Of a stretch of DNA of 64,000 nucleotides, positions 10,206 through 13,240 are shown in pieces. A program made the position numbers and the translations under genes. The notes beneath the pieces are model-generated. The model saw nothing but the letters and a program-made list of their open reading frames with translations. It did not search any database and was not told where the DNA came from. This DNA comes from Candidatus Bathyarchaeota archaeon (GTDB taxonomy: Archaea > Thermoproteota > Bathyarchaeia > Bathyarchaeales > Bathycorpusculaceae): contig JAOZHV010000044.1 of assembly GCA_026014725.1 (NCBI GenBank), positions 92,272 to 156,271 of the forward strand, written 5' to 3'. Position 1 is the stretch's first letter. Each line of letters opens with the position of its first letter.

Positions 10206-10544
10206 CTATATCGAGCTACCTTTTTCTGTTATCTTGTATATTTTCCAGTTCTTCTTTTTATAAGAGCTTATCAGACCTGCTTCTTCTAGAACCATAAGAT
10301 GATAAGAGAGCCTAGAATCAGAGATTTTCATTAGGACTTTTATGACGCATGGACATAAGTCACATTGACGGATGGCTTTTAGAATTGTTAGTCTTGTTTT
10401 GTCTGAAAGAATTCTGTACAGTTTGACCTCTTGGTTGATTTCCTCAGAATTGATAGCTTTTTTTATGCGGTCTAATCCGCCGATTTCGTCAATAGCTTCC
10501 TTGACTTCTTCGGGGTATTCAACATCTTTGTTTTTGTCTGCCAT
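10206..10544 (-). CDS. ArsR/SmtB-family metal-responsive repressor
   Basis: A 112-residue winged-helix repressor from the ATG at 10544; a TTG three codons earlier (10553) could also start it with a nearly leaderless message. The HTH reads LSDKTRLTILKAI, then SDSRLSYHLMVLEEAGLI and the wing KKKNWKIYKITEKG. Between helices lies QCDLCPCVIKV, a three-Cys cluster at the place where ArsR-type sensors have ELCVCDL, so it should bind a thiophilic metal. It ends 4 bp from the convergent ATPase gene. It is the best candidate reader of the TATTTCAA-N6-TTGAAATA palindromes. Confidence 0.9.
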   Translation of the reverse strand: MADKNKDVEYPEEVKEAIDEIGGLDRIKKAINSEEINQEVKLYRILSDKTRLTILKAIRQCDLCPCVIKVLMKISDSRLSYHLMVLEEAGLISSYKKKNWKIYKITEKGSSI

Positions 10545-10617
10545 AGTGCTCAATTGAAATATAGTTATCCGTAAATAAAAGTGTAGATTTAATTTTATTT
10601 AGGAAAAACGAATAATG

Positions 10618-10725
10618 GTTACAATAAATCTATGTAAGGTTTTAAAATTTCCCTGACTGTTTTGCTTATGTTAAGTGGGTGCTACGGGCAGGATTCGAAC
10701 CTGCGAACCCCTGCAGGAAAGGATT
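10618..10725 (-). repeat. Partial tRNA-Leu(CAA) 3' half plus flank (att-like direct repeat, copy 1)
   Basis: This segment aligns without gaps over 108 bp to 11223-11330, with about a dozen differences, nearly all in the flank. Positions 10680-10725 correspond to the tRNA 3' exon (end of anticodon stem, variable arm, T arm, acceptor 3' strand) and differ from the complete gene at one base. The match stops at the exon 2 / intron border of the complete tRNA. Together with the second copy it brackets the toxin-antitoxin genes, like attachment sites of an element inserted at a tRNA 3' end. It lacks a 5' half, so it is not a complete tRNA gene. Confidence 0.85.
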
Positions 10726-10731
10726 ACTGCT

Positions 10732-10992
10732 TTATTTATCGTAGACTTTTTTGCGGTGACCAACGGTTCTGATGATGACGGTTTGATCAGAAACTTGGTA
10801 GATAATTCTGTAATCGCCCACGCGAAAGGATTTAAGGTCGCTTAAACGCCCCACTAACTGTTTACCAGCATGTGGCTTGTTTTCTAAAATCTTGCGTTCT
10901 TTTAGTATTCGAATTTGCGTCTGCCTATCAAACTGCTTGAGATTCTTTACGAATTCCTTAGTGAAGATTAGTTCAAAGCTCTTTTTCATCAA
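10732..10992 (-). CDS. RelE/ParE-family toxin
   Basis: An 86-residue protein of the RelE/ParE fold, small ribosome-dependent mRNA nucleases or gyrase toxins. Signature parts are FVKNLKQFDRQTQIRILKER, then GRLSDLKSFRVGDYRIIYQV and RTVGHRKKVYD; the basic C-terminus fits RelE-like nucleases. The start overlaps the antitoxin stop by 20 bp, standard for coupled expression. The stop lies just 7 bp from the truncated tRNA copy. Nuclease activity is inferred from family. Confidence 0.88.
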   Translation of the reverse strand: MMKKSFELIFTKEFVKNLKQFDRQTQIRILKERKILENKPHAGKQLVGRLSDLKSFRVGDYRIIYQVSDQTVIIRTVGHRKKVYDK

Positions 10993-11203
10993 TGCTCAGC
11001 TCTTGGAGCATTTCTTTAAAGCTTAACACTTTGCCTTCTTTGAGGTCTTTGCGGCTTCTGTCAATGCTTTTCATCATTTTCTCGTCGCTCAGAACATCAA
11101 GTGTTTCCATAAGTTCTTCAACGACTGTGCGGAGCTTTGGCAGTTCCTCAGCTATAACTTTGAGGTTTTTCTTATCTTCGTCGGTGAAAACTGCTTCAAC
11201 CAT
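10973..11203 (-). CDS. Antitoxin partner of the RelE-type toxin
   Basis: A 76-residue acidic helical protein (EELPKLRTVVEELMETLDVL, then SRKDLKEGKVLSFKEMLQEL) ending in an acidic tail. The segment KDLKEGKVLSFKEML matches the C-terminal neutralising region common in RelB-like archaeal and bacterial antitoxins of RelE/ParE systems. It is upstream of and overlaps the toxin gene. No clear ribbon-helix-helix is visible, so autoregulatory DNA binding is uncertain. The pair is the only content of the interval between the two tRNA-derived repeats. Confidence 0.82.
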   Translation of the reverse strand: MVEAVFTDEDKKNLKVIAEELPKLRTVVEELMETLDVLSDEKMMKSIDRSRKDLKEGKVLSFKEMLQELSIDEKEL

Positions 11204-11222
11204 CCAATCACCATTCTTGATA

Positions 11223-11330
11223 GTTACAATAGACCTATGTACGGTATTAAAATTTCCCTAAATGCTTTGTCTATATTATGTTGGTGCTACGGGCAGGATT
11301 CGAACCTGCGAACCCCTGCGGGAAAGGATT
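11223..11330 (-). repeat. tRNA-Leu 3' half plus flank (att-like direct repeat, copy 2)
   Basis: The second copy of the 108-bp repeat. It includes the real 3' exon of tRNA-Leu(CAA), the CCA and about 60 bp downstream. Distance between equivalent positions in the two copies is 605 bp. The flank contains a shared TTAAAATTTCCCT block. See the copy at 10618-10725 and the corresponding finding. Confidence 0.85.
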
Positions 11331-11402
11331 TCCCATCAGGCGCCATTTGTCAAAGCGTCGATCTTGAGTCCTTCACCTTTGACCTGGCTTGGTTACCGTA
11401 GC
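11282..11402 (-). tRNA. tRNA-Leu(CAA) with canonical intron
   Basis: Read on the minus strand, the acceptor GCTACGG (from 11402) pairs with CCGTAGC, followed by discriminator A and an encoded CCA (to 11282). D stem ACC/GGT, T stem GCAGG-TTCGAAT-CCTGC and a long class II variable arm identify a Leu type. The anticodon stem AAGGA/TCCTT closes a loop CTCAAGA, anticodon CAA, only if about 33 nt after position 37 are removed, which is the standard archaeal intron site. A TA module and a second 3' half lie downstream. Confidence 0.93.
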
Positions 11403-11458: not shown

Positions 11459-13240
11459 CTAGAGGGTTTTTTCTAAATCCGCTACTAGGTGTTTTAGGAA
11501 TTTTATGCCGCTGTTCCAGAAGCTTGGTTCCTCAACGTTTAAGCCGACGATTTTTGCAATGCCCAACGGTGAGGTGCTGCTGCCTGCGCTGAGGGCTTGT
11601 TTTAGTTTGGGCACAAACGTTTTGCCTTCCTGTTGATAGTGTTCATACAGCGCGTAGACGAACATTTGGGCGTAGACGTAGGGGTAATTGTAGAAGCGGT
11701 AGTTCGCCATAAAGTAGTGGGGTTTCATGGTCCATTCGGCTTGCATTTCTGGGAGCCATGTGACGGCGTCTCCGTAGATGCGGTCGCGGGCGGTTGTCCA
11801 GTGGTTGCAGATTGTTTGGTAATCGAGGAACTCTTCGTTTTCGATTGCGTTGTAGAGTGATTGTTCGAACCATACGCGTGCGGTGACTTGAAATGTGGTT
11901 ATGCCTGCTTCGTCTAGGACATGGCAGAGGACAGCTCTTTTTTCCGCCTGCGTTTTTGCCTGTTCCAAGAGCAGGTCAGTTAGGAGGAGTTCGCCAAAGA
12001 TTGAGGCGGTTTCTGCCACGATGGAGGGGACGCTCATGTTTAGGAGTGTTTGGCTTCTTGACGCGTACCAGTCATGCGTGGCGTGTCCCAACTCGTGTGC
12101 CAGCGTGAAGGTGTCGTTTAGTGTGCCGTTGAAGCTTTGCAGGATGAAGGCGGATTTACCGTTGTAGTAGCATGCGCAGAATGCTCCGTTGCGTTTGCCA
12201 AAACACGGCGTTGCGTGGATGCGGCGTTTTTGGAAGATTTCCTGTGTTGCGTTTGCGTACTGTGTGTCAAAGCGACTGTAGGCTTCTGTGACTAATTCCT
12301 GTGCTTGTTGGAAGGTGAATTTGAGTTCTGGCGTGTTTGGCAGTGGGGCTACTATGTCGTGGTTGCCGAGCACGGGGAGGTTCATGAGTTTGGCTTTGAG
12401 TTTTAGGTAGTGCTGGTATGTGTTTGTGTTTTCTTGGATGGTTTTTAAGAGGTTGTTGATTATGTTTTGTTGGGTGTCGTTGCTGATTAGGCTGGCTTCC
12501 ATGGGCGATTGGTATTTTCTGCGTTTTGATACGGTTACCCAGTCGTTGCATATGCTTCGCAGGGCGCTTGAGAAGATTTCGCCGTCTTTGCCTAGTACTC
12601 CGTAGATGGCGCGGTTGGCGGATTCGCGTGTGGCACGGTCGGGGTGGGGCAAAAGTCCGTTTGCTTCTCCGTAGCTGAGCGTCTTTTTTTCGCCCAGAAC
12701 TGTGACTTCAAAGAGGCGTGTGTTTAGCCATTTGCTTTGCAGTTCTTCCCACGCGTTGACGCCGAACTGGTCTTTCTCAATGATAAGTTGCTCTTCGACT
12801 TCGCTGAGTTGATGTTCGACTCGGCGGTGCACGCGCTCTAACATGTGCTTGTAATTCGCCAAAACGGGCTCTTGGATGAGTTCAGGTTTAGCTTTTACCA
12901 GTTTGCCCAGTTCCAGCGAGAAGAAGGCTAGTTGTTTGCCGATTTTGGCTTCCAGCTTGTTTATCCTATCGTTTAGTGCCTGCGTTTCTGGCAGGGTCAT
13001 GTTTGCTGAGAAGCAGAGGCTAGAAAACAGTGTAATGTCCTTAAACTTTGCCTCAAAAGTTTCTACCTCTTGCAGGCACCGTAGCAAGCCTTCGGGTGTT
13101 AGCTGGGCAATTTTTTCACGGTACGCCTTCTCGAACGCGTCCGTCATGGCTGTGGCTTGTGCGATGGCTTGGTTGATTTTTGGGTCGGTTGCGCAGGAGA
13201 AAAGTTCGGTTAAGTCCCATGTAACTTGTTGCGTGGTCAA
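11459..13240 (-). CDS. pepF: M3-family oligoendopeptidase F
   Basis: A 593-residue zinc metallopeptidase of the M3B PepF group, which cleaves short peptides in the cytoplasm. The zinc site is His382-Glu383-Leu-Gly-His386 in LAHELGHATHDWYASR, with the third ligand expected in the helix around SIVAETASIFGELLL. The N-terminal helical domain begins with WDLTELF, typical of the family. The start is TTG at 13240 preceded by AGAGG. The minus-strand gene follows the tRNA promoter region and is a stand-alone transcription unit. Confidence 0.95.
   Translation of the reverse strand: MTTQQVTWDLTELFSCATDPKINQAIAQATAMTDAFEKAYREKIAQLTPEGLLRCLQEVETFEAKFKDITLFSSLCFSANMTLPETQALNDRINKLEAKIGKQLAFFSLELGKLVKAKPELIQEPVLANYKHMLERVHRRVEHQLSEVEEQLIIEKDQFGVNAWEELQSKWLNTRLFEVTVLGEKKTLSYGEANGLLPHPDRATRESANRAIYGVLGKDGEIFSSALRSICNDWVTVSKRRKYQSPMEASLISNDTQQNIINNLLKTIQENTNTYQHYLKLKAKLMNLPVLGNHDIVAPLPNTPELKFTFQQAQELVTEAYSRFDTQYANATQEIFQKRRIHATPCFGKRNGAFCACYYNGKSAFILQSFNGTLNDTFTLAHELGHATHDWYASRSQTLLNMSVPSIVAETASIFGELLLTDLLLEQAKTQAEKRAVLCHVLDEAGITTFQVTARVWFEQSLYNAIENEEFLDYQTICNHWTTARDRIYGDAVTWLPEMQAEWTMKPHYFMANYRFYNYPYVYAQMFVYALYEHYQQEGKTFVPKLKQALSAGSSTSPLGIAKIVGLNVEEPSFWNSGIKFLKHLVADLEKTL

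Follow-up and report, generated by a model that had tools for sequence, protein, structure and literature searches.

Integrative elements of the SSV type (suicidal-integrase elements) reside in archaeal tRNA genes and are recognized by a split integrase; they target the tRNA 3' end, leave a duplicate of that end on the far side and keep the tRNA intact (review PMC8371274). Integrated elements of Thaumarchaeota, including cryptic ones, use tRNA targets with or without introns, and arrays through re-use of one target site are known among these multigene elements (PMC6563490). The unit described here, a toxin-antitoxin pair (TA1) bounded by a copy of tRNA-Leu(CAA) exon 2, shares target, duplicate and intact tRNA with the SSV-type elements, a true member of which sits at the same tRNA in one relative, G007. 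However, TA1 is a two-gene unit of about 603 bp without an integrase, a replication gene or an int(N) or int(C) fragment, and it is old and apparently vertical. RelBE and ParDE type II modules have the same RelE/ParE-superfamily toxin and small overlapping upstream antitoxin gene, but the TA1 antitoxin has no named family and tRNA exon 2 forms the border of the unit. Chromosomal integrons hold TA cassettes, small promoter-bearing units that lie between repeated recombination sites. In contrast, the TA1 sites are tRNA exon 2 and not attC, and neither an integron integrase nor an array was shown.

The window, a 64,000-nt stretch, is part of contig C44 in a draft genome of 2.56 Mb (G000). At the locus, read along the minus strand, an M3 peptidase gene is followed by tRNA-Leu(CAA), the antitoxin promoter, antitoxin A1, toxin T1, the exon-2 copy, a copy of the promoter segment and an ArsR regulator gene. 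The M3 peptidase gene (11459-13240, minus strand) was assigned with Pfam and by comparison with relatives, where it is a conserved neighbour. The ArsR-family regulator (10206-10553, minus strand; Pfam HTH_5) is a neighbour outside the unit. The intron-containing tRNA-Leu(CAA) gene (11285-11402, minus strand) was detected with Rfam (RF00005, 43.9 bits, E 1.5e-7). Exon 1 (11363-11402), the intron (11330-11362) and the 45-nt exon 2 (11285-11329), all on the minus strand, were read from the sequence, and the spliced tRNA folds as a cloverleaf with the loop CUCAAGA and the anticodon CAA. ARAGORN reported no tRNA at the locus, which was not counted as evidence since the gene has an intron.

A gap-free direct repeat of 111 nt with 87% identity was recovered mechanically at 10615-10725 and 11220-11330, in agreement with the first-pass annotation, which had described a repeat of the tRNA 3' exon plus about 60 bp of flank. 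It is composed of two things, a near-perfect tRNA exon 2 (44/45) and a more diverged promoter segment (52/65, 13 differences). The exon-2 copy (10680-10724, minus strand) begins 7 nt past the toxin stop codon and starts at the intron/exon-2 border, as had been noted. Flank A, the 3' flank of the tRNA (11220-11284, minus strand), carries the antitoxin promoter TTTAGGGAAATTTTAATACC at 11243-11262. Its copy, flank B (10615-10679, minus strand), lies upstream of the ArsR gene with no antitoxin behind it, and the promoter motif is changed to TTTTAAAACC. At up to 3 mismatches, the only exon-2 sequences in the window genome were the two at the locus and one match on contig C26; the latter is of a type present once in most genomes and is probably another tRNA gene.

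Two genes only lie between the repeats, toxin T1 and a small overlapping ORF upstream of it, antitoxin A1. The earlier statement that an intact tRNA stands at one end, with nothing but a RelE-like toxin and its antitoxin in between, is supported by Rfam, Pfam, TIGR02385 and the ORFs. As had also been noted, there is no integrase in the unit; no integrase remnant was found between the repeats either, and the PF00589 matches of this genome are on other contigs. Toxin T1 (10732-10992, minus strand, 86 aa) is, by its sequence, a RelE/ParE superfamily protein, scoring above the curated cut-offs of Pfam ParE_toxin (44.5 bits, cut-off 23; E 2.3e-11) and TIGR02385 RelE_StbE (32.5, cut-off 27.9). RelE3 (3bpq) is a weak sequence relative in the PDB, and T1 is predicted to be an mRNA interferase. 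Antitoxin A1 (10973-11203, minus strand, 76 aa) matched no family in Pfam or NCBIfam and hence no known antitoxin type there. Its homologues in five relatives are 72-84% identical, and the position of the gene and its conservation beside T1 suggest an antitoxin role. The toxin on contig C154 of G003 is 72% identical to T1.

We compared the surroundings of tRNA-Leu(CAA) wherever a match existed among 31 Bathyarchaeota relatives of the same genus (32 genomes in all, every one a draft MAG). Upstream of the tRNA, many relatives carry rpoB and an adenine-specific DNA methyltransferase gene. The downstream content is highly variable and includes TA1, a solitary antitoxin A2, AAA ATPases, a PIN toxin, a MobA relaxase, RhuM, radical SAM and others, often followed by the M3 peptidase gene. 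The window genome, G006 and G011 carry TA1 with both A1 and T1 at the tRNA. G022 has A1 alone at the tRNA, G015 has a decayed A1-T1 stretch with an exon-2 copy, and G003 has TA1 with a decayed exon 2 on a contig other than that of its tRNA locus. A marginal case is G013, with A1 beside the M3 peptidase gene and a 13-nt tRNA end upstream whose score was reached by 29 of 1000 shuffles. A clade of nine genomes (G001, G002, G008, G010, G019, G020, G026, G027 and G031) has no TA1 at the tRNA where this is readable; closer TA1 homologues, about 40-58% identical, are located elsewhere in these genomes.

In G011 and G017 an exon-2 remnant is followed by a further antitoxin homologue, A2. It is 30-48% identical to A1, and none of the A2 genes examined has a recognizable toxin after it. 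An exon-2 remnant proposed between A1 and A2 of G022 was rejected, as 174 of 1000 shuffles scored equally well, and none was found in the spacers of G024, G009b and G018. The antitoxin tree, read without the rows of G028 and G002 (wrong frame), joins A1 and A2 weakly (89), and the two stand separate from relatives encoded elsewhere in the genome. Solitary A2-like genes after tRNA-Leu are located at L040 3412-3660, L058 3811-4059, L056 8102-8353 and L052 7613-7852; they lack a recognizable toxin, often lie beside the M3 peptidase gene and have the same promoter motif in front. The M3 peptidase gene itself is upstream of tRNA-Leu in the window genome (11459-13240), G003 (L055) and G017 (L052). 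Most relatives that keep it nearby have it downstream, which suggests that a local rearrangement has taken place across this tRNA.

The 3' end of tRNA-Leu(CAA) is a genuine integration hotspot in the genus. G007 carries a 6.8-kb element after the tRNA (L044 3448-10392 on G007:C2), at whose far end a 26-nt T-arm plus acceptor end is repeated as GCAGGTTCGAATCCTGCCCGTAGCAC. The gene of its tyrosine recombinase (Pfam E 1.7e-18) begins in the frame of the tRNA; the N-terminus that it lacks, MSIKIREPTKTVSRKAGSNPARST, lies at the opposite element end (attR), again in that frame. One reading frame thus joins MSIKIREPTKTVSRKAGSNPARST at attR with the 322-aa integrase at attL, as expected of an attP within the integrase gene that is split by integration, and on this basis the element is of SSV type. 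It also carries an FRG gene, a GmrSD-like gene and a weak Rep_1 match, and its integrase had no relative in IMG/VR. To the right of the element end there is a C-terminal integrase fragment related to an integrase-like gene on contig C69 of G009, and the adjoining DNA matches DNA after a tRNA-Leu on that contig. The G009 gene (G009:C69 L036 1198-2748, 516 aa) is convergent with tRNA-Leu, overlaps its 3' end and gives weak Phage_integrase and Phage_integr_3 matches. C69 was considered as a simple empty site for the G007 element and rejected, since it has its own integrase beside the tRNA. Taken together, G007 and G009 indicate that different elements have stacked at tRNA-Leu(CAA). A larger integrase-bearing element at this tRNA, which the first-pass annotation had proposed to look for in related genomes, is therefore present in G007, and G009 has its 516-aa integrase-like gene beside the tRNA. 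We found little literature on such elements in Bathyarchaeota, for which the hotspot and its SSV-type element are documented here.

The first-pass annotation had likewise proposed to look for an empty site, and an exact one was found. Counted from the promoter through antitoxin and toxin to exon 2, the unit is 605 bp long in the window genome, against 603 bp in G006 and 602 bp in G011. In G011 the 602 bp lie between the tRNA and A2; in G018 A2 comes directly after the tRNA. Over 330 bp, the DNA that follows the exon-2 copy of G011 aligns with the DNA that follows the G018 tRNA at 77% identity. By comparison, the 330 bp behind the tRNA of G011 itself reach 58%, and the M3 peptidase genes of the two genomes are 82% identical. 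G018 is the nearest sampled relative of G011 and its sister in the M3-peptidase tree (SH-aLRT 100); it differs from G011 upstream of the tRNA. G018 is thus an exact empty site for the unit of G011; none was available for the window species itself. Conservation of the arrangement in all relatives with no empty site, which would have spoken against a mobile origin, does not hold.

The junction between toxin and exon 2 in the window is homologous in G006, G003, G015 and G011. Between the toxin stop codon and exon 2 lie 7 nt in three genomes (that of the window, G006 and G003) and 5 nt in G015; together with the near-equal unit lengths, this makes the junction look like one ancestral event. At four-fold sites, the divergence of TA1 (A1+T1) is 1.04 versus 0.92 for rpoB between the window genome and G006, and 0.65 versus 0.74 between the window genome and G011. 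A1 and rpoB distances correlate positively, although this is weak and suggestive with six taxa (Mantel rho 0.42, p 0.067). Given the rpoB-like divergence and the junction common to several species, TA1 is probably old, mainly vertically inherited and repeatedly, hence patchily, lost; this falls short of proof.

We somewhat favour the view that the TA pair resides at an integration hotspot as a non-mobile passenger, bounded by exon 2 and removable through the repeats. Its likeliest origin is an ancient integration event in the 3' exon of the tRNA, which would have left exon-2 copies on both sides, comparable to attL and attR; the integrase part of the founding element would have been lost later. 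Integration as the founding event is our inference, and no integrase or remnant is present inside any TA1 unit. The divergence data support that the unit has since been inherited mostly within one clade of the genus. Exchange between the exon-2 repeats could then delete the unit precisely and leave an intact tRNA, the state seen in G018, while a RelE-type toxin, judged by its family, would penalize deletion by post-segregational poisoning. Unequal exchange, the opposite outcome, could duplicate the segment that follows exon 2 and so give rise to flank B and possibly to A2 in relatives. If this is correct, what an integration or duplication leaves behind at a tRNA gene can be reduced to a two-gene TA unit and persist across a genus, with the tRNA exon as a hinge for precise loss or local duplication. 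The locus would also be a natural test case for whether addiction modules of archaea stabilize segments that lie between direct repeats.

The flank part of the repeat has a different meaning from the exon part. The motif TTTAGGGAAATTTTAATACC, common to the flanks of both repeats, precedes most A1 and A2 genes of relatives, which identifies the repeat flank as the antitoxin promoter rather than a piece of an att site. The flank of about 60 bp that the first-pass annotation had included in its att-like repeat is a second copy of this promoter. The exon-2 copies of G006 and G015 are without such a flank. This window-specific flank copy is best explained by tandem exchange at exon 2: flank B would be the residue of unequal exchange between exon-2 repeats, after which the second TA was deleted.

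The same observations can be read without any integration, and for the original event a remnant of a larger element and a tandem duplication are both candidates, as the first-pass annotation had it. A pure tandem duplication, which we regard as possible though distinctly less probable than the passenger view, would have an ordinary rearrangement place the TA operon after the tRNA and then duplicate the segment from exon 2 to toxin. The exon-2 copies would be duplication joints, and site-specific integration would never have been involved. A2 following an exon-2 remnant in G011 and G017, the grouping of A1 and A2 apart from relatives elsewhere, flank B as a copy of flank A and a TA unit without an integrase all agree with it, and the weak joining of A1 and A2 (89) fits it just as well. 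Against it, the readable junctions (window genome, G006, G015 and G003) begin at the exon-2 border of a tRNA that is an integrase target, and A2, at its low identity to A1 and without a toxin, shows no recent simple duplication.

The exon-2 copies are preserved to different degrees. Identity to the tRNA is 44/45 in the window and 43/45 in G015, but about 32/45 in G011 and 33/45 in G003, and of the five copies beside TA1 three show decay, which is partial in G006 and strong in G011 and G003. With the junction age taken as about 0.37-0.52 substitutions per site per lineage (rpoB four-fold sites), a neutral copy as old as the species splits is expected to retain about 28-32/45, and one mismatch or none would arise with a probability of 2e-8 to 3e-6; this calculation assumes four-fold sites as the clock and a single junction age. 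The window and G015 copies must therefore have been kept by gene conversion or exchange with the tRNA gene, or by selection on the copy. The toxin and antitoxin of G015 are broken remnants, which argues against selection acting through the toxin. A younger exchange in the window lineage, as proposed for flank B, would also refresh the exon-2 copy.

Continuing exchange with the tRNA gene that keeps the copies alike is part of a broader and rather unlikely reading, namely that exon 2 is a standing recombination site of a small TA cassette array, whose units are gained and precisely lost while the toxin guards against loss. If true, this would be an integron-like system on an essential tRNA that works without an integrase or with one supplied in trans.

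A minimal TA element that was mobile until recently, integrated at tRNA-Leu in trans by a foreign integrase, is improbable. The att-like ends, the exact empty site, the patchy distribution of TA1 and the occurrence of integrases in all 32 genomes would suit it. However, divergence like that of rpoB, a single shared junction and the three decaying exon-2 copies speak against the recently mobile form of this idea. No near-identical TA1 copies in different species and no extrachromosomal form were found, nor was a TA1 copy found on viral contigs, where exon 2 had no match and the toxin had one weak RelE-like match (34% identity). The first-pass annotation had raised other combinations of tRNA 3' halves with TA genes in the clade, but a T-arm scan of 60 TA loci gave no association with other tRNAs; TA relatives in the genus are almost never near a T-arm, with distant ones only in G028 and G031. 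About equally improbable is that the exon-2 copy is kept for an RNA role, as the 3' UTR or a tRNA-like hairpin of the toxin mRNA or as an alternative tRNA-Leu 3' exon: the window and G015 copies are indeed far above the neutral level of about 30/45, the latter with its toxin and antitoxin broken, but in G011 and G003 the copy has decayed beside an intact TA1, the fold of the copy is unremarkable (z -1.5), and gene conversion from the tRNA explains the preservation equally well.

Several other features were seen at tRNA-Leu and elsewhere in the genus. Two adjoining ORFs in G015 (L045 7291-9164) resemble one split AAA/OLD-type ATPase gene, inserted between tRNA-Leu and the dead TA1. Directly downstream of tRNA-Leu in G012 lies a MobA/MobL relaxase gene (L043 4072-5601), which suggests a mobilizable element. 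Several genomes of the genus contain many copies of dispersed short repeats that resemble a tRNA-Arg 3' half, TTTTGGGTTCAAATCCCATCGGACCCGCC, and of related CCCATCGGAC units (G003:C154 L059 4450-5480; L301, L302, L308, L313 and L314); these may represent att footprints or else a small family of repeats.
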